DNA of 34,891 nt, taken from Myxococcales bacterium. Lineage in GTDB: Bacteria > Myxococcota > Myxococcia > Myxococcales > Myxococcaceae. Location of the stretch: assembly GCA_020846875.1 (NCBI GenBank), contig JADLDB010000146.1:1-34891 (forward strand), written 5' to 3'. Below the pieces are notes generated by a model, which was given only the letters and a program-made list of their open reading frames with translations, made no database searches and was not told the DNA's origin. The position numbers and the translations under genes are program-made. Below are positions 4,057-34,891 of this stretch, piece after piece (within the stretch, counting starts at the first letter, position 1; every line of letters begins with the position of its first letter).

Positions 4057-5037
4057 GTGGACGCGACGACGTTGAAGACGAAGCTGCTCCTGCACGGCCC
4101 CGACGCGCCGCTGGCGAAGCTGGCCGCGCTCTCGGTGGACGCGCTGCTGGACACGCCCCTCTCTGCGCTGTCGAAGCAGGGCGAGGCGGTGTCGGCGACG
4201 CGCAGGCTGCTGGAGGCCTGGCTGGCCTCCGACGAGGCGGGGAAGACGCTGGGCAAAGTGGTGGACCTCGCGGTGGCGCGGCTCCAGGCCCGGCGCAGCG
4301 CGCTCAAGGAAGTCACCCCCGCCGAGGTGCAGCGCACGGTGCGGGAGCTGGTGGGCCGGCCCTTCTCTCCCGAGAAGCGCCTGGTGCTGACCATCATCGA
4401 CCGGCCGCCGATGCGCGAGCTGGTGCGGCAGTTGCTGCTGGACGTGGTGCTGGACTTCGGGCGCCGGGCGAGCGCTCCGGTGGCCGGCGTGGCCAAGGGC
4501 CTGGGGGCGCTGGCGCGGATGGCGGGCGAGACGGTGAAGGCGAAGTCGGGCGGGCTGGGCAGCCTGGTGGGCGCGGTGTCGGGTGAGGTGGAGCGGCAGG
4601 TGGAGAAGCGGGCCATCGACTTCGTGGACGCGGCGCTGGCGGGCGTCTTCGGACAGTTGGCCGACGCGGTGTCGGATCCAAAGCGCGCGGAGGAGGCGGC
4701 CGAGCTGCGCATGGCCTTCTTCGACGGGGTGCTGGAGCTGACCCTGCCCCAGTTGGCCCGCGAGGTGATGAACGCCGACGTGCCGGGCGGCGCGGAGGTG
4801 CTGCGCGCGGGGCTCAAGTCATGGCTCGCGTCCGAGGCGAGCCACCAGGGCTTGCAGCAGGTGGCGCAGGCGGTGCTGGAGCGCGACGGCGCGCGCACGG
4901 TGCGCATGCTGCTGGCCGACTGGGGGCTGGCGGAAGAGGCCCGGGCGCTGGCGGTGGAACAGCTCGCGGCGCGCCTGCGGGCCATCGTCCAGACGGACGG
5001 CTTCAGCCAGTGGCTGGCGGCGCTCATGTCGCCCTGA
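4057..5037 (+). CDS. Conserved hypothetical helical protein
   Basis: A 326-residue protein I do not recognise. It is almost entirely predicted helix, Ala/Leu/Val-rich, with no Cys, no signal peptide and no clear membrane segment. A central Gly/Ala-rich stretch (about residues 130-175, with VAGVAKGLGALARMAG) is amphipathic and could contact membrane. The start is a GTG with AGGG eight bases upstream; no better start is in frame. It is divergent from orn and convergent with the membrane protein gene at 5062-5625. Codon use is like the neighbours, so it is very likely a real gene. No function is proposed. Confidence 0.75.
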   Translation: MDATTLKTKLLLHGPDAPLAKLAALSVDALLDTPLSALSKQGEAVSATRRLLEAWLASDEAGKTLGKVVDLAVARLQARRSALKEVTPAEVQRTVRELVGRPFSPEKRLVLTIIDRPPMRELVRQLLLDVVLDFGRRASAPVAGVAKGLGALARMAGETVKAKSGGLGSLVGAVSGEVERQVEKRAIDFVDAALAGVFGQLADAVSDPKRAEEAAELRMAFFDGVLELTLPQLAREVMNADVPGGAEVLRAGLKSWLASEASHQGLQQVAQAVLERDGARTVRMLLADWGLAEEARALAVEQLAARLRAIVQTDGFSQWLAALMSP

Positions 5038-27546: not shown

Positions 27547-27720
27547 GCCCTGCCAGCCTACAGAAGCCTCTGGGTCTCCGGTAGTGGCCGACGGCGCAAG
27601 GAGCCGGGGAATCCTGCGCCAGGACGCAAGCAATGCGCCACACCCGAGGCCTGGCGACGGGCGGAGAGCGCGAAACGCCGGGACGTGCGTTGGTGCGTCC
27701 GATGCAGGTCTACCGCCTGC

Positions 27721-27945
27721 ATGTGCCTGGCCATCCCCGTGCGAGTCGTGGCGCTGCTGGAGTCCGCCCGGGCGAAGGTGGACCTGGGCGGCGTGCAGAA
27801 GGACATCTCCCTGGCGCTGGTGGAGGACGTCGCGGTGGGGGACTACGTCATCCTCCACGTCGGCTATGCCTTGCAGAAGCTCGACCGGGACGAAGCGGAG
27901 AAGACGCTGGCGTTGATCGCCGCGTCGGGGGTCCAGCCCGCATGA
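27721..27945 (+). CDS. hypC: Hydrogenase maturation chaperone HypC
   Basis: 74-residue HypC/HybG protein, the chaperone that carries the Fe(CN)2CO unit between HypD and the hydrogenase large subunit. The essential N-terminal MCLAIP (Cys2) is intact, as are [15 protein letters not shown] and the [10 protein letters not shown] segment with its conserved His (H46). It lacks the acidic tail of E. coli HypC and so is on the short side. Its stop overlaps the hypD start as ATGA. The SD is weak (AGGT 13 bases upstream). The 174-base gap to the divergent lipoprotein must carry the operon promoter; I see no clear -10/-35, FNR box or sigma-54 site in it. Confidence 0.94.
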
Positions 27946-29087
27946 AGTACCTCGACGAATTTCGCGACGGGAAGGCCGCGCGCGCGCTGGCGCAGACCAT
28001 CGCTCGCGAAGTCGACCCTTCGCGCCGGTACCACGTGATGGAGTTCTGCGGCGGCCACACCCACGCCATCTCCCGCTACGGCATCGCCGACCTGTTGCCG
28101 CCCAACATCCGCCTCATCCACGGGCCGGGCTGCCCGGTGTGCGTGCTGCCCATCGGCCGCATCGACGACGCCATCGGGCTGGCGCTGGAGCAGCAGGTCA
28201 TCCTCGCCACCTACGCCGACTGCCTGCGCGTGCCGGCCTCGAAGGGCCTGTCGCTGCTCAAAGCCAAGGCGAAGGGCGCCGACGTGCGCATGGTGTACTC
28301 CAGCGCGGACGCCTTGAAGATGGCTGGAGACAACCCGGGCCGGCAGGTCGTCTTCTTCGCCATCGGCTTCGAGACCACCACCCCGCCCACCGCGGTGGCG
28401 GTGCTGGAGGCGCAGCGCCTGGGCCTCACCAACTTCACCGTCTTCTGCAACCACGTGCTGACGCCCGCGGCCATCACCCACATCCTCGAGTCGCCCGAGG
28501 TGCGGCAGCACGGCACCGTGCCGCTGGACGCCTTCATCGGCCCGGCCCACGTCTCCACCGTCATCGGCAGCCGGCCCTACGAGCACTTCGCGCACGAGTA
28601 CGCCAAGCCGGTGGTGATCGCCGGCTTCGAGCCGCTGGACGTGATGCAGGCGCTGCTCATGCTCGTCCGCCAGTTGAACGAGGGCCGCGCGGAGGTGGAA
28701 AACGAATTCACCCGCGCCGTCACCCGCGACGGAAACCTGAAGGCCCAGGCGCTGGTGGCCGAGGTCTTCGAGCTGCGCAAGTCCTTCGAGTGGCGGGGCC
28801 TGCGCGAGGTGCCCTACAGCGCGCTCAAGCTGAAGGAGAAGTACCGCGCCTTCGACGCCGAGGTGCGCTTCGAGGTGAAGACGAAGCCGGTGGCCGACCA
28901 CAAGCACTGCGAGTGCGGCGCCATCCTGCGGGGGCTCAAGCGGCCGTGGGACTGCCAGCTCTTCGGCGCCGTGTGCACGCCGGAGAACCCGATGGGCAGC
29001 TGCATGGTGTCTTCCGAAGGCGCCTGCGCCGCGCACTACACCTACGGTCGCTTCCGCGACCCCCACTCGCCCGCCCACGCCCCATGA
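27942..29087 (+). CDS. hypD: Hydrogenase maturation protein HypD
   Basis: 381-residue [4Fe-4S] scaffold protein on which, with HypC, the Fe(CN)2CO moiety of [NiFe] hydrogenases is built. Key Cys are all there: C36 in [11 protein letters not shown], and C64 and C67 in [10 protein letters not shown], matching the redox and iron-binding Cys of E. coli HypD. The C-terminal cluster Cys lie in [33 protein letters not shown] and [12 protein letters not shown]. Length is normal for the family. The start overlaps hypC and the stop overlaps hypE, both as ATGA, so translation is coupled along the operon. Confidence 0.97.
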
Positions 29088-30136
29088 AGACCGTCCGCAC
29101 CGGCTACGTCCGGCCCATCGACTTCCGCACCGGCCACGTCGACATGACGCACGGCTCGGGAGGCCGCGCCATGGCCCAGCTCATCGACGAGCTGTTCCTC
29201 GCCGCCTTCGACAACGAGTACCTGCGCGCGCAGAACGACCAGGCCTGCTTCCCGGTGCCGCCGGGCCGCCTGGTGATGGCCACCGACGCGCACGTCGTCT
29301 CGCCCCTCTTCTTCCCCGGCGGCGACATCGGCTGCCTGTCGGTGCACGGCACCATCAATGACGTGGCCATGGCCGGCGCGCGGCCGCTGCACCTCTCCGC
29401 CAGCTTCATCCTCGAGGAGGGCTTTCCGCTGGCGGACTTGAGGCGCATCGTGGAGTCGATGGCCAGGGCCTCGCGCGAGGCGGGCGTGCCCATCGTCACC
29501 GGGGACACCAAGGTGGTGGAGAAGGGCAGCGCCGACGGCGTCTTCATCACCACCACCGGCGTGGGCGTGGTGCCCGACGGCGTGGCGCTGTCCGGCGATC
29601 GCCTGCGGCCGGGCGACGCGCTGCTCCTCTCCGGCACGCTGGGCGACCACGGGGTGGCGATCATGGCCCAGCGCGAGAGCCTGGGCTTCTCCACCACCAT
29701 CGAGTCGGACACGGCGGCGCTGCACGGGCTGGTGGCGACGATGGTGGAGGTGGCGCCGAAGTCCCTGCGCGCGCTGCGCGACCCGACGCGAGGCGGCCTG
29801 GGCACCACCTTGAACGAGTGGGCGCGGCAGTCGCGGGTGGGCCTGTTGGTGGACGAGGCGGCGCTGCCGGTGCGGCCGGAGGTGGCGGCGGCCTGCGAGT
29901 TCCTCGGGCTCGACCCGCTGTACGTGGCCAACGAAGGCAAGCTGGTGTGCGCGTGCGCGCCCGACGCCGCGCCCAAGCTGCTGGAGGCGATGCGCGCTCA
30001 TCCCCTCGGCCGCGCCGCCGCCCTCATCGGGACGGTGCAGGAGGACGAGCACCACTTCGTGCAGCTGGACACCTCCTTCGGAGGCCGGCGCATCGTCGAC
30101 TGGCTGACCGGAGAGCAACTGCCGAGGATTTGCTGA
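29084..30136 (+). CDS. hypE: Hydrogenase maturation protein HypE (carbamoyl dehydratase)
   Basis: 350-residue ATP-dependent enzyme that dehydrates the carbamoyl group placed on its C-terminal Cys by HypF, making the thiocyanate that is handed to HypCD as cyanide ligand. The family ending PRIC with its terminal Cys is intact. N-terminal GHVDMTHGSGGRAM and AQNDQACF lie where PurM-type proteins bind ATP, and TDAHVVSPLFFPGGDIGCLS, VHGTINDVAMAGARP and DPTRGGLGTTLNEWA are all family hallmarks. HypF, which must act before it, is not in the window. The stop TGA overlaps the hypX ATG as TGATG. Confidence 0.97.
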   Translation: MKTVRTGYVRPIDFRTGHVDMTHGSGGRAMAQLIDELFLAAFDNEYLRAQNDQACFPVPPGRLVMATDAHVVSPLFFPGGDIGCLSVHGTINDVAMAGARPLHLSASFILEEGFPLADLRRIVESMARASREAGVPIVTGDTKVVEKGSADGVFITTTGVGVVPDGVALSGDRLRPGDALLLSGTLGDHGVAIMAQRESLGFSTTIESDTAALHGLVATMVEVAPKSLRALRDPTRGGLGTTLNEWARQSRVGLLVDEAALPVRPEVAAACEFLGLDPLYVANEGKLVCACAPDAAPKLLEAMRAHPLGRAAALIGTVQEDEHHFVQLDTSFGGRRIVDWLTGEQLPRIC

Positions 30137-31848
30137 TGCGCGTCCTGCTCCTCGCTCATGCGTTCAACAGCCTCACCCAGCGGCTGTGGGTGGCGCTGAC
30201 GGCGCGTGGGCACGAGGTGTCGCTGGAGCTGGACATCGCCGACGCCGTCTCGCTGGAGGCGGTGCAGCTCTTCCGCCCCGACGTGGTGGTGGCGTCATTC
30301 CTCAAGCGCGCCCTCCCCGAGGCGCTGTGGGCCTGCGTGCCCTGCCTGGTGGTGCACCCCGGGCCGCCGGGCGATCGCGGGCCCTCCTCCCTGGACTGGG
30401 CGATCCTCGACGGGAAGCAGGAGTGGGGCGTCACCGTGCTGCAGGCCAACGCGGTGATGGACGGCGGGCCGGTGTGGGCTTTTCGCTCCTTCCCGATGCG
30501 CGCGGCGCGGAAGAGCAGCCTGTACCGCAACGAGGTGACGGAGGCGGCCACCGGGGCGGTGCTGGAGGCGCTGGAGAAGCTCGCGGCGGGCGCGAGGCCG
30601 GAAGCGCAGCGCGAGGCCACCGCGCGGCCCCGGCCGCTGATGAAGCAGGAGCACCGGCGCATCGACTGGACGAAGGACGACACCGAGACGGTGCTGCGTA
30701 AGGTGCGCGCGTCGGACTCGGTGCCCGGCGTGCTGGACTCGCTCGGCGGGCAGGAGGTGTACCTCTACAACGCCTTCCTCGATGCCACGCGGCGGGGCGC
30801 GCCGGGCACCTTGCTGGGCCGGAAGAGCGGCGCCGTGCTGCGGGCCACCGTCGATGGCGCGGTGTGGCTGACGCACTTGAAGCGTGCGGCGCGTACGGGA
30901 GAGTCGGAGGCGGAGGCGCCCTTCAAGCTGCCGGCGGTGGAGGTGCTGGGTGAAGCGGGCCGGGCGCTGCCGGAGTTGGCGGAGGGCTGGGCGCCGATTG
31001 GCTACCAGCGCGCGGGAGACGTGGGGCTGCTCTCCTTCGACTTCTACAACGGGGCGATGTCCACCTCGGACTGCCTGGCGCTGCGCGACGCCTTCCTCGA
31101 AGCGGCGCGGCGACCCACCAAGGTGCTGGTGCTGCTGGGCGGGCCGGACTTCTGGTCCAACGGCATTCACCTCAACACCATCGAAGTCGCCTCCAGCCCG
31201 GCCGACGAGTCGCTGCGCAACATCGAGGCGATGGACGAGCTCTGCCGGGCGATCATCGAGTGCACCTCGCAGCTCACCGTGGCGGCGCTGCAGGGCAACG
31301 CGGGCGCGGGCGGCTGCTTCCTCGCGCTGGCGGCCGACGTGGTGCTGGCGCGCGACGGCGTGGTGCAGAACCCGCACTACAAGAACATGGGGAACCTGTA
31401 CGGCTCGGAGTACTGGACGTACCTGCTCCCGCGGCGGGTGGGCGCGAAGCAGGCCGAGGCCATCACCCAGAACCGGATGCCGCTGGGTGCACAGGAGGCG
31501 AAGCGCGCGGGCCTGGTGGACGAGTGCTTCCCCGGGTCGCCGGGAGAGTTCGTCTCGCGGGTGAAGGCGCGCGCGCAAGGACTGGCCAGCGCCGCCGACT
31601 TCGAGCGCCGGCTTTCCGACAAGCGCGCCCGCCGGGCCACCGACGAGGCGACGCGTCCCCTGTCGAAGTACCGCGAGGAGGAGCTGGCGAAGATGCGGCT
31701 CAACTTCTACGGCTTCGACCCCAGCTACCACGTGGCGCGCTTCCACTTCGTGCACCGCCTGCCGCACGCGTGGACACCGCTGCACCTGGCGCGGCACCGG
31801 GCGCAGGCCTGGAAGAAGCAGGCCGCGCTGACGACGCGCGTCACCTGA
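30136..31848 (+). CDS. hypX: HypX/HoxX: CO-ligand synthase for [NiFe]-hydrogenase
   Basis: 570-residue fusion of a formyltransferase-type domain (about 1-230) and an enoyl-CoA hydratase-type domain (about 290-510). Known HypX proteins turn the formyl group of formyl-tetrahydrofolate into CO for the hydrogenase iron when oxygen is present, by way of formyl-CoA. The first domain keeps HPGPPGDRGPSSLDWA (H74) and GVTVLQANAVMDGGPVW (D109), matching the catalytic His and Asp of Met-tRNA formyltransferase. The second has FWSNGIHLN and ALQGNAGAGGCFLALAADVV, with the crotonase oxyanion-hole glycines, then VQNPHYKNMGNLYGSEYWTY, typical for HypX. Its start overlaps the hypE stop. Its last eight bases overlap the end of the convergent lipoprotein gene. 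Confidence 0.95.
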   Translation: MRVLLLAHAFNSLTQRLWVALTARGHEVSLELDIADAVSLEAVQLFRPDVVVASFLKRALPEALWACVPCLVVHPGPPGDRGPSSLDWAILDGKQEWGVTVLQANAVMDGGPVWAFRSFPMRAARKSSLYRNEVTEAATGAVLEALEKLAAGARPEAQREATARPRPLMKQEHRRIDWTKDDTETVLRKVRASDSVPGVLDSLGGQEVYLYNAFLDATRRGAPGTLLGRKSGAVLRATVDGAVWLTHLKRAARTGESEAEAPFKLPAVEVLGEAGRALPELAEGWAPIGYQRAGDVGLLSFDFYNGAMSTSDCLALRDAFLEAARRPTKVLVLLGGPDFWSNGIHLNTIEVASSPADESLRNIEAMDELCRAIIECTSQLTVAALQGNAGAGGCFLALAADVVLARDGVVQNPHYKNMGNLYGSEYWTYLLPRRVGAKQAEAITQNRMPLGAQEAKRAGLVDECFPGSPGEFVSRVKARAQGLASAADFERRLSDKRARRATDEATRPLSKYREEELAKMRLNFYGFDPSYHVARFHFVHRLPHAWTPLHLARHRAQAWKKQAALTTRVT

Positions 31849-32983
31849 AGGAGACGCGCAGGATGCGGCCGTCGGACCAGGAGGCGCTCTGGGTCCCGGC
31901 GCAGAGCACGTACACCACCCCCTCGTGCACCGTCAGCGCCACCGGGTAGGGGAGCGCCGTGGCCACCTCCTCGGCCAGGGTGGACTCGTGCGCCACGCGC
32001 ATCAGCACCCCGCTGGAGAGGTCCGGGTCTCCCGGCTCGACCCACCAGGCGTGAGTGCCGTCGAGGGCGAAGTCCTTCACGCCCTGCGCGTTGTTGGCCA
32101 CCTGCTCCAGGCGCGCGTTGCTGAGCGTCTGCCGGAACACCAACGAGGGGAAGTCGCGGGCGTAGTACAGGTAGGCGGCATCGCCGCGCATCGTCTGGAA
32201 GCCACCGCTGAAGCTCGAGTCGGCGCGCGCTCCGCTCCCGTCCGTGCGCATCGACTGCAGCCCGCCCTGCAGCCCGGAGATGTCCACGCCCACCCAGTGC
32301 ACGCGCGGACCCGCTACCGTCATCACCCAGGGAGTGCCGTTGGAGTTGATGGGCGTGGAGGTGACGCCGCCGAAGGGAGTGCGGTTGATCGGGGCGCTCT
32401 GCGTCGTCCAGAAGGCCGCGGTGCCGTCGGTGGCCAGGGTGACCAGCTCCGAGGCGCCGGTGGCGACGTTCTGCGCCCCCCCGTCGAGGGAGTACCGCCG
32501 GAGCGCGGTGACGTCGGCGACCAGCACCTCGGTTGCCGTCGCGGCGAAGGCGCTGGGGCGCGTCAGCGTCGCCACGCGCTCGACGCAGGCGCCGCCGTCG
32601 CAGCCGGAGAGAGGGGCACGGTACAGGCCGGAAGCCGTACCGCTCTCCACCCAGGTGAGCGCGCCGCCCACCACGGCCACGCCACCCCGCCAGGGCCTGA
32701 ACCCGCTGGCGGAGCGCGCACCCAGGCGGCTGCGGCCTTCGTAGAGCGGCTCGACGGTGACGGTGCCGGTCAACCCGCCGTCGCTCGGCGAGCCGCCTCC
32801 CGAGCCGCCGCCGACGCCGCCGCCTCCTCCCGAGCCGCCACCGATGCCGCCGCCTCCTCCCGAGCCGCCGCCGGTGCCGTCGTCACCGCCACCGCCCCCG
32901 GTGCCGCCGTCCGTGCCCGGGGGCCTCAGCGCCCCGCAGGTGGACAGAGCCAGGACGAGAACAACAACGCCGAGGGAGCGCAT
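31841..32983 (-). CDS. Lipoprotein with Gly/Ser linker and propeller-like domain
   Basis: 380 residues. The signal peptide MRSLGVVVLVLALSTC ends at lipobox LSTC (Cys 16). A linker of about 45 residues is nearly all Gly with a few Ser/Asp (ten-residue period). The rest is beta-rich with repeated short units such as GGALTWVESGTASGLYRAPL, TDGTAAFWTTQSAPINRTPF and GDAAYLYYARDFPSLVFRQTL, the look of a six- to eight-bladed beta-propeller often seen in myxobacterial surface proteins. One Cys pair is near SGCDGGACVERVATL. The stop lies inside the end of hypX (convergent overlap of eight bases). Function unknown; probably binds something at the outer surface. Confidence 0.82.
   Translation of the reverse strand: MRSLGVVVLVLALSTCGALRPPGTDGGTGGGGGDDGTGGGSGGGGGIGGGSGGGGGVGGGSGGGSPSDGGLTGTVTVEPLYEGRSRLGARSASGFRPWRGGVAVVGGALTWVESGTASGLYRAPLSGCDGGACVERVATLTRPSAFAATATEVLVADVTALRRYSLDGGAQNVATGASELVTLATDGTAAFWTTQSAPINRTPFGGVTSTPINSNGTPWVMTVAGPRVHWVGVDISGLQGGLQSMRTDGSGARADSSFSGGFQTMRGDAAYLYYARDFPSLVFRQTLSNARLEQVANNAQGVKDFALDGTHAWWVEPGDPDLSSGVLMRVAHESTLAEEVATALPYPVALTVHEGVVYVLCAGTQSASWSDGRILRVSFR
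32794..32880. repeat. 30-bp imperfect tandem repeat in lipoprotein linker
   Basis: Units begin CGAGCCGCC at 32801, 32831 and 32861, with a partial one before; they differ at a few bases. The period encodes ten residues of the Gly/Ser linker. As in the other lipoprotein, the period keeps the frame whatever the copy number. Confidence 0.85.
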
Positions 32984-33038: not shown

Positions 33039-33440
33039 TCACGTCCCCAGCGAGTGCAGCCAGTCCATCACGTCGTCCTGCACCTGCTTCTCCGGGCGCG
33101 CGGGAGGAGGCGGCTGGCCGGCCTGGACCCTCACCGGCTGGCCGCCGTTGAGCGCGGTGAGCTCGCCGTCGTCGAGGAAGACGCCGCTGCACTGGGTGCA
33201 GAACTCGACGCGCAGGCCGCCGCACTCCGCGGGCCGCATGGGGACGGCGCAGCGCGGGCAGCGGCGGGAGCTCTCCTGCTCGGCGGTCAGCTTCGCGGCC
33301 GGCCGCTTCCCCAGGGTGCCCTCGAGCTCCCCGCCGTCGAACCACAGGCCGCGGCAGAAGGCGCAGCGGTCGAGCGTCAGCTTGCCGGCCTGGAAGGCGC
33401 GCATCTGGCCGGTGCAGCCGGGGCAGGTGAGTTGGCTCAT
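33039..33440 (-). CDS. Double zf-TFIIB zinc-ribbon protein
   Basis: 133 residues from the ATG at 33440. Two copies of the zf-TFIIB (PF13453-like) ribbon: LTCPGC with CAFCRGLWFDGGEL, and RRCPRC with CTQCSGVFLDDGEL. Both CxxC pairs are complete in each. The C-terminus is Pro-rich and ends in a short acidic helix (VQDDVMDWLHSL). Members are small cytoplasmic proteins of uncertain role. An upstream in-frame GTG at 33488 would add 16 very basic residues encoded by group II intron sequence and is rejected as the native start. No SD lies just before the ATG. The intron end next to it may have removed it from its promoter. Confidence 0.82.
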   Translation of the reverse strand: MSQLTCPGCTGQMRAFQAGKLTLDRCAFCRGLWFDGGELEGTLGKRPAAKLTAEQESSRRCPRCAVPMRPAECGGLRVEFCTQCSGVFLDDGELTALNGGQPVRVQAGQPPPPARPEKQVQDDVMDWLHSLGT

Positions 33441-33465
33441 TGGTGGATGGGGGTGCCGTTTCCGC

Positions 33466-34891
33466 TTACGCGGCGCGGTCTCCCCCACCTCCTTTCAAAC
33501 CGTGCGTGCGGGTTTCCCGCACACGGCTTACGGGTGGGACTTCACGATGCAGCATGCACGGCTTCGGGTACCGCACGGTGCCGCGTAGTCGGTACAGGCC
33601 CCGAGCTTCGTAGTCCTCGCGCGTCCAGCGGATGCGATGACCCGGCTTCGCGTGTCGTCGATGGCGTCGCCACCGAAACATGTTCAGCCGCCGCACGACG
33701 TACTTGTCGAGCGAGAGAAACTTCCGGGCTGCATTTCCGGTCGAGAAGTGTCGGCCCCAGCCTTCGAGCACCGGGTTCAGGTCGCGGATGAGCACGTCCA
33801 CGTCCTTCACGCCGTCGCGTCGTGAGTCGGTCAGCTCCTTCACCTTCGACCGCACCTTCTTCATGTTTCGCGTCGAGGGCCACCGCTGGAGGTAGTAGCG
33901 ACGAATCCGCTTCTCCTCCCACAGCTCCCCCGACATTCGCATGTGCAGGTGACAGCCGAGGAAGTCGAAGCCTTCCTTCCCCTCGGTCAGGTCTACTCTT
34001 CTCGTCTTCTCGGGATGCAGCGACAGCTTCAGCCGCTCGAAGATGATGCGCACTCTTCGTTCAGCTTCTTCCACGGCTTCGCGGCTTCTGCAGAGCACCA
34101 CGAAGTCGTCCGCGTACCGCACCAGCGTGCCGACTTCGGCGCACTGGCGCTGCCACACGGTGTCGAGGAAGTGCAGGTAGATGTTCGACAGCAGCGGGGA
34201 AATGACGCCTCCCTGCGGCGTACCTGAGACCGTCTCTGAGTACGTGCCCTCGTCCACCACGCCTGCCTGAAGCCAACCACGCAGCAGTTTGAGGACTCGT
34301 CTGTCTGAGACACGCCTCGACACGCGCTCCATCAACACCATCTGGTCGATGGTGCCGAAGTAGTCGCGGATGTCGGCGTCCAGCACGTGGCGACTTCCCG
34401 CGTTCACCTTCTCGCGAATCGTCTCCAGTGCCTGCAACGTGCTTCTGCGCGGCCGGAAGCCGAAGGACGAGGGCAGAAAGTCCGCCTCGAAAATCGGCTC
34501 CAACACCAACTTCGCCGCCATCTGCACGACGCGATCTCTCACCGTCGGAATCCCCAGCGGCCGCTGCTTGCCATCGGCCTTCGGGATGTACCGCCTCAGC
34601 ACGGGAGGTGCTCGGTACGTTCCTGCGAGGAGCTTGTCTCGAAGCTCATTCAGCAGCTTCTCGACTCCGTACTGCTCCACTGCCTCGAGCGTGACTCCAT
34701 CCACGCCTCCGGCTCCCTTCTTGCGCTTCACCCGCTCCCACGCCTCGTGCAGGACGTCACTCCGGCACAATCGGTCGTACAGCGCGTGGAATCGGCGTTC
34801 CTTCTGCTGCTTGGCTGCAACGTAGAGCTTCCGCTGGAGTCGTCGGACTTTCTCGTCAGGCTCGTGCCTGCCGGGGTTGTTGGACGCGCTC
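33466..34891 (-). CDS. ltrA: Group II intron reverse transcriptase/maturase, 5' end outside window
   Basis: Intron-encoded protein that helps splicing and copies the intron into new sites. The frame stays open to the window edge; the first residues seen include RRLQRKLYVAAKQQKERRFH, so the true start is beyond 34891 and the TTG at 34770 is internal. RT blocks: GAGGVDG, PLGIPTVRDRVVQMA, SSFGFRPRRS, SGTPQGGVISPLLSNIYLH, the YADD catalytic motif in VRYADDFVVLC, and FDFLGC. The maturase (domain X) part is LNPVLEGWGRHFSTGNA. There is no HNH endonuclease domain, so it would use replication forks or other nicks as primers. The last 30 codons (PPVSRVRETRTHGLKGGGG) run through intron domain V, a feature of compact bacterial introns. 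Appears intact as far as seen. Confidence 0.93.
   Translation of the reverse strand, partial: SASNNPGRHEPDEKVRRLQRKLYVAAKQQKERRFHALYDRLCRSDVLHEAWERVKRKKGAGGVDGVTLEAVEQYGVEKLLNELRDKLLAGTYRAPPVLRRYIPKADGKQRPLGIPTVRDRVVQMAAKLVLEPIFEADFLPSSFGFRPRRSTLQALETIREKVNAGSRHVLDADIRDYFGTIDQMVLMERVSRRVSDRRVLKLLRGWLQAGVVDEGTYSETVSGTPQGGVISPLLSNIYLHFLDTVWQRQCAEVGTLVRYADDFVVLCRSREAVEEAERRVRIIFERLKLSLHPEKTRRVDLTEGKEGFDFLGCHLHMRMSGELWEEKRIRRYYLQRWPSTRNMKKVRSKVKELTDSRRDGVKDVDVLIRDLNPVLEGWGRHFSTGNAARKFLSLDKYVVRRLNMFRWRRHRRHAKPGHRIRWTREDYEARGLYRLRGTVRYPKPCMLHREVPPVSRVRETRTHGLKGGGGDRAA
33496..33529 (-). ncRNA. Group II intron domain V
   Basis: 34-nucleotide catalytic hairpin read on minus. The lower stem AGCCGUG pairs with CACGGUU, including the AGC catalytic triad and its G-U pair. 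A two-base bulge (CG) follows, then the upper stem UGCGG(G)/(C)CCGCA with a GAAA-type loop. It matches the D5 consensus in length, bulge position and triad, so the intron's catalytic core looks functional. It overlaps the last codons of the reverse transcriptase. Confidence 0.9.

Follow-up and report, generated by a model that had tools for sequence, protein, structure and literature searches.

We describe a lineage of IIC-like group II introns for which leaderless genes, at their start codons, are very probably the homing target. The zinc-ribbon gene of the window, by which we mean the whole 34,891-nucleotide stretch of Myxococcales bacterium DNA that was analysed, is one host of this start-codon-targeting lineage.

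The intron of the window and its host gene

The window is the entire contig C146 of its genome, and the contig breaks within a group II intron on the minus strand (Table 1). A preliminary description of this DNA had recognized the intron, and Rfam confirms it (RF00029, Intron_gpII, match at 33442-33531, minus strand, 42 bits against a gathering cut-off of 40), as do matches of the encoded reverse transcriptase (RT) to RVT_1 and GIIM in Pfam and to TIGR04416. The description was also right that the RT reads through domain V (DV), the frame being uninterrupted from the contig edge to 33466. Pfam finds RVT_1 and GIIM only in the window RT, with no match to an endonuclease domain; the nearest chain of solved structure is the GsI-IIC RT. 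Since the frame is open through DV in only 10 of 46 copies, this feature is neither general nor unique to the window, and we rejected the idea of a translational coupling device.

Table 1. Intron and host gene features in the window.
Feature	Position	Strand	Basis
Intron, 3' part (5' part past the contig edge)	33438..34891	-	Rfam match; 98% identical 3' end on contig C67; end set by relatives' empty sites
Intron-encoded reverse transcriptase/maturase, frame open at the contig edge	33466..34890	-	ORF and family matches
Domain V	33497..33529	-	Rfam match
Stem of domain VI; its bulged A at 33444, 7th base from the intron end, is a candidate branch point	33442..33492	-	Fold
AAAGGAGGTG, DV-DVI linker and 5' strand of DVI, no ribosome site	33486..33495	-	Fold
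Putative terminal start codon ATG of the intron, in frame with the zinc-ribbon gene	33438..33440	-	Empty sites, family
Zinc-ribbon gene, codon 2 to stop	33039..33437	-	Zn_ribbon_TFIIB match

The downstream gene is indeed of the proposed zf-TFIIB type, as indicated by its Zn_ribbon_TFIIB match. Its ATG had been placed up to about 27 bases from the intron end; it does abut the intron, but the distance is zero, and the ATG would be the intron's own last three bases. This assignment is taken from other sites of the family, DNA-level empty sites being available there and not at the window intron's own locus. Codon 2 is AGC, and its A is the IBS3-like base discussed below. The gene was correctly said to have no Shine-Dalgarno (SD) sequence, but the insertion did not remove one: in all three close intronless orthologues (three relatives, 56-58% identical), an SD is absent and a TANNNT box stands 7-8 nt before the ATG (TATACT-N7, TAGGCT-N8, and TATCCT-N7), and the gene therefore lost no SD. 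Similarly, AAAGGAGGTG lies just after DV as reported, but it is largely paired in domain VI (DVI), and we rejected a role as ribosome site.

At window positions 27633-32983, the zinc ribbon is adjoined by a Gly-rich, lipoprotein-like ORF without a Pfam match, past which lie ORFs that by eye resemble hydrogenase maturation genes (HypD/HypE-like).

A clade of introns ending in a start codon

A contig scan for relatives of the RT gave at least 571 confirmed loci, and we read the best 80 in detail. One Nannocystis poenicansa record holds ten copies with an RT. The clade label was given to 43 of these best 80 of at least 571, first sorted by eye on their 3' ends and hence not blind. Within this set, the 3' end CCxNTG was found at 41 of 43 clade loci and at none of the 37 others, the exceptions being L065, which ends in ACG, and L074, a variant spelling. 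The loop of EBS1 reads CAY in 42 of the 43 clade loci versus 1 of 37, again among the best 80 of at least 571. In an IQ-TREE analysis of 71 distinct RTs, from which ten loci with identical RTs were excluded and which held no reference set of intron classes, 40 clade members including the window intron fall on one side of a single branch with a support of 100/99. The hosts belong to Myxococcota, Actinomycetota, Acidobacteriota, Planctomycetota, Pseudomonadota, Spirochaetota, and others, many of the genomes being MAGs in which binning errors are possible. Several of the non-clade introns, mostly from Bacillota, begin with GCGTGCCCAG after T-runs that by eye resemble terminators.

A plasmid search with the window RT returned 105 records, three of which were inspected for motifs. 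The best one, an Embleya plasmid with 57% identity, provides an out-of-sample copy that reads TACGGT-GCGTCC-ATG^GTGCGTCC, with EBS1 CAUG and CTACCAATG before an ORF; in the Streptomyces and Leptospira records (49% and 53%), clade motifs were not found by the same patterns. A pattern search across the phylum hit 3 places, all in a single genome of 195, a result that is uninformative on frequency, the pattern being too narrow and missing even the introns of the window's genome.

Two other observations were made during the survey. In L086, a stretch downstream of DV, near position 4802, resembles the 5' region of a second group II intron (GGGTGAGAGTCCCG); it follows directly on the end of a class C-like intron and may represent a tandem or nested insertion. 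In Brevibacillus panacihumi, six near-identical introns (L092-L097) share a similar flank ending in AGCGGCCA, perhaps a repeated target.

Most target sites carry a -10 box before the start codon

Both junctions were sought at 54 clade loci (the 43 and 11 further copies), and 50 gave both ends, nine of them via hand-set patterns; L041, L043, L069, and L180 were dropped from the junction analysis. A TANNNT hexamer ends 5-10 nt before the junction codon at 44 of the 48 loci with at least 25 nt upstream, compared to 1.8 by shuffling and to 27 of 388 other ORF starts of the same loci. The spacing is 6 nt in 26 and 7 nt in 15 of these 48 loci, and the exceptions are L055, L056, L063, and L178. By pattern, the upstream flanks are those of a -10 box and start codon (44/48) and not, it appears, the intrinsic terminators or attC sites after or at which class C introns insert. 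SD-like motifs are present at only 3 of the 48 sites. Judged from these sequences, the targets appear to have the layout of leaderless genes.

Ten downstream ORFs were hand-picked from the 50, and all of them match Pfam, the hosts including DNA polymerase I, MTHFR, a protein kinase, TetR, and an amino-acid permease. Not every site is a good gene, as the frames downstream of L044, L056, L061, L062, and L066 are short. L061 has GCG in place of the expected start codon.

EBS1 and an EBS3-like position covary with the target

EBS1 is the loop CAUX of a hairpin, GCCGAG..GGCGAAGGC, and complements the start codon together with the base preceding it. Among 47 copies, Watson-Crick pairs are formed at position -1 in 47, at -2 in 46, and at -3 in 43, with G-U pairs in the remaining 4; because the search pattern demanded CAY, these three counts are partly given by construction and have to be read with the contrast to the non-clade introns (42/43 versus 1/37). 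At position -4, we counted 34 Watson-Crick and 9 G-U pairs, with mispairs at L058, L077, L078, and L187. In 5,000 permutations, which ignore kinship, the number of pairs averaged 25.8 and never exceeded 36, against the 43 observed. A CACU subfamily sits at GTG starts in 6 of 6 cases and itself ends in GTG, but because this subfamily is one lineage, its covariation counts as one event.

The first base of codon 2 finds its complement in one column of a CGGGGUA-N-GGG stretch in 21 of 27 subfamilies, the next best column reaching 15. At the 93% identity cut-off that defines the subfamilies, 18 Nannocystis copies that differ in specificity fall into a single one. Found by pattern in 31 of 50 copies, this position forms 27 Watson-Crick pairs and 1 G-U pair and is mispaired in L051, L054, and L072, while permutation gives a mean of 11.6 and a maximum of 21. 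Going by its covariation, we call this position EBS3-like, a putative EBS3. Class C introns as a rule have an EBS1 of about 4 nt and a single-base EBS3, and the covariation points to the same short arrangement here.

These pairings bear on the possibility that there is no targeting at all, and that insertion is wide with survivors only right behind the start codons of promoter-bearing genes. Insertion between start codon and codon 2 does indeed burden the host only mildly, about five base pairs by themselves represent a weak specificity, and L178 inserted elsewhere. However, EBS1 covaries with the start codon and with position -4, the EBS3-like base covaries with codon 2, and related non-clade introns do not occupy this position. 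We consider selection alone quite unlikely to account for the clade; it can hold for the -10 box, less so for the codon.

The intron inserts after the start codon and ends in its own

Comparison with empty sites had been proposed as a way to place the junction, and we carried it out at other filled sites of the family. Flanks were joined, first for 13 Nannocystis copies and then for 9, and used as queries against three Nannocystis genomes. In the final comparison, 15 of 21 distinct copies align across the junction in another genome (L044, L045, L048, L049, L051-L054, L062, L178, L179, L181, L182, L183, and L185), with low identities at L183 (77%) and L185 (68-74%) and with one of two L179 matches gapped beside the codon. 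An empty site with the native ATG had been named as the finding that would refute the preliminary reading, and the outcome was unexpected: the empty sites of relatives hold one native start codon each, save at L178, but this codon corresponds to the one upstream of the intron, and the downstream ATG is intron-borne. In filled copies, one start codon stands ahead of GTGCG and a second one follows CTACCA. At L044 and L181, the orthologues begin with GTG, and the filled copies have GTG upstream and ATG downstream; at L178, the relatives read GCG or CTT, neither a start codon, and the filled copy still has ATG downstream. L182, with ATG on both sides and GTG in the orthologues, is ambiguous. Because of L044 and L181, the downstream ATG is no copy of the native GTG, and the pattern at these two sites and L178 therefore assigns the downstream codon to the element and places the insertion between start codon and codon 2. 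The inserted unit is GTGCG...CCA[A/G]TG, the sliding ambiguity left by the shared TG being resolved solely by base pairing and the family's GTGCG 5' end.

In most of 27 folds, the DVI stem ends in CU-A-CC with a bulged A and leaves AAUG unpaired. The window intron folds like the clade DVI, plus a second small bulge, and 6 of 7 non-clade introns that were folded have the pattern A-CUC-UAC. Given a clade end after AUG, the bulged A is the 7th base from the end in the clade and in the others alike, and AUG therefore occupies the position of UAC. The spacing from this predicted branch point thus counts for an intron end after AUG, and after the folds we dropped the idea of a terminal codon that extends past a normal 3' end. 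Group II introns by rule end in AY, a rule from which the clade departs: members with a placed end finish in AUG or GUG.

Target-site duplication would make the downstream ATG a 3-bp copy of the native codon and would end the intron at CTACCA. This is consistent with the same codon on both sides of most filled sites and a single one in empty sites. It is nevertheless very unlikely, as the codons differ at L044 and L181, where the native GTG is found upstream and ATG downstream, as only an end after AUG makes the bulged A the 7th base from it, and as group II retrohoming is not known to create a target duplication.

Alternatively, the mobile RNA could retain a 3-nt 5' exon, AUG, and insert before the native codon, the upstream ATG then being the donor's. 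Transcription from a native AUG would leave just such a 5' exon, and the DNA layout would be identical. However, the native codon should then lie downstream and the donor's upstream, the opposite of L044 and L181, and both EBS1 and the EBS3-like base match an insertion after AUG, which makes this explanation extremely unlikely. Finally, the preliminary description's view of an ordinary intron that landed near the gene by chance and took over or removed its ribosome site has virtually no chance of being right: although AAAGGAGGTG is present and the gene lacks an SD, the orthologues lack one too, the motif is largely paired in DVI, and the arrangement is clade-wide, with a terminal start codon at 41 of 43 clade loci versus 0 of 37 others.

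In 7 of 27 subfamilies, the last intron bases themselves read TANNNT-N6/7-ATG (for example, L044, L057, L062, L112, and L042), and such introns might carry an outward leaderless promoter at their own 3' end. A general portable -10 box at this end (TAGGAT-CTACCA-ATG) was rejected, as it would be limited to these 7 subfamilies.

A proposed mechanism

In the farthest-reaching model, one that we consider possible rather than probable, insertion after the start codon would reflect a ribozyme whose EBS1 CAU reads leaderless start codons melted in the open complex and whose terminal codon preserves the frame, spliced or not, a fourth target specificity. EBS1 has the same letters as the anticodon of initiator tRNA, CAU. 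As to how the lineage probably works, about five base pairs are too few, so that the promoter would supply the remaining specificity, perhaps as the single strand of the open RNA-polymerase complex. The intron would then reverse splice into the sense strand after AUG, with this strand melted by RNA polymerase. Transcription would start at or beside the native AUG, giving a 5' exon of 3-4 nt, and excision from AUG| to AUG| would restore the AUG-codon 2 junction exactly. On unspliced or truncated RNA, the terminal AUG would offer the host gene an in-frame start. Either splicing or a working terminal AUG would suffice to keep the cost to the host small, consistent with a copy before polA. By analogy, integrative elements rebuild the end of a tRNA gene and so carry a replacement for the host-gene piece at their insertion point; they differ from the clade in that a DNA integrase acts at tRNA genes, where the clade has a ribozyme and start codons.

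If true, this would represent a retroelement lineage with a generic, sequence-poor target, the leaderless start codon, available in many genes per genome, and a host-sparing device at the 3' end of a bacterial retroelement. It would testably tie transcription initiation to retrohoming, provide natural markers of leaderless genes across many phyla, and suggest a programmable intron for gene-start insertion. Annotation would also have to be corrected, the called start codon being intron sequence and the native one lying about 2 kb upstream.

Relation to known group II introns

The three target specificities given in a 2015 review are homing sites, terminators, and attC (PMC4424553), and start codons would be a fourth target of group II introns. 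In the literature searched, mainly open-access, we found group II introns reported neither at start codons nor at leaderless genes, and an earlier description is possible. With group IIC, the clade shares a short EBS1 and EBS3-type recognition, a GUGYG-like 5' end, a bulged A 7th from the end, RT kinship (GsI-IIC RT), and the lack of an endonuclease domain. In contrast, group IIC targets terminators or attC and ends in UAC, whereas the clade targets a start codon behind a -10 box with EBS1 CAU/CAC and has AUG or GUG as its last three bases (PMC4424553).

C.te.I1 of Clostridium tetani likewise has the start codons of downstream ORFs within D5/6. Unlike the clade, it is of class B without an RT, its alternative splicing fuses an upstream ORF, its 5' splice site lies 8 nt upstream of GUGCG, and no start-codon target is described there (PMC3919590). 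The introns of the Bacillus cereus group are also mobile with an unusual 3' end, but their extension of 53-70 nt lies past DVI, while the clade ends at normal spacing from the bulged A (PMC3261151).

Copies in the genome of the window

The genome of the window has five RF00029 matches and five intron 3' ends, all of which stop at ...CCACCAATGA or ...CTACCAATGA, with an ORF beginning at that ATG. These ORFs are the zinc ribbon, a lipoprotein-like ORF (C67), ORFs on C64 and C170, and a cysS-like ORF (C171), those other than the zinc ribbon being named by eye and not by family search. There are also five 5' halves (C109, C129, C160, C9, and C115). In four of them, ATG (C109, C129, and C160) or GTG (C9) immediately precedes GTGCGTCGTG, and TANNNT is found upstream of three of these four, C129 being the exception; the half on C115 is without the 5' end.

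By sequence type, the window intron could continue into either C109 or C115. Synteny did not identify the partner, as no protein of the five 5' flanks had a match in the neighbourhoods of the zinc ribbon in three relatives. EBS1 of C109 is CCTG, and given this sequence, that copy may be decayed. If C115 were the partner, the window intron could not splice normally, and its terminal ATG would be the gene's sole start.

The C115 copy itself (L226, C115:12531-12930) lacks its 5' end and is fused to unrelated coding-like sequence, a structure that would prevent normal splicing. A sister copy of the window intron (L233, C67:1-651) has lost most of its RT through deletion in several pieces; it retains DV, DVI, and the terminal ATG, immediately before the lipoprotein-like ORF.
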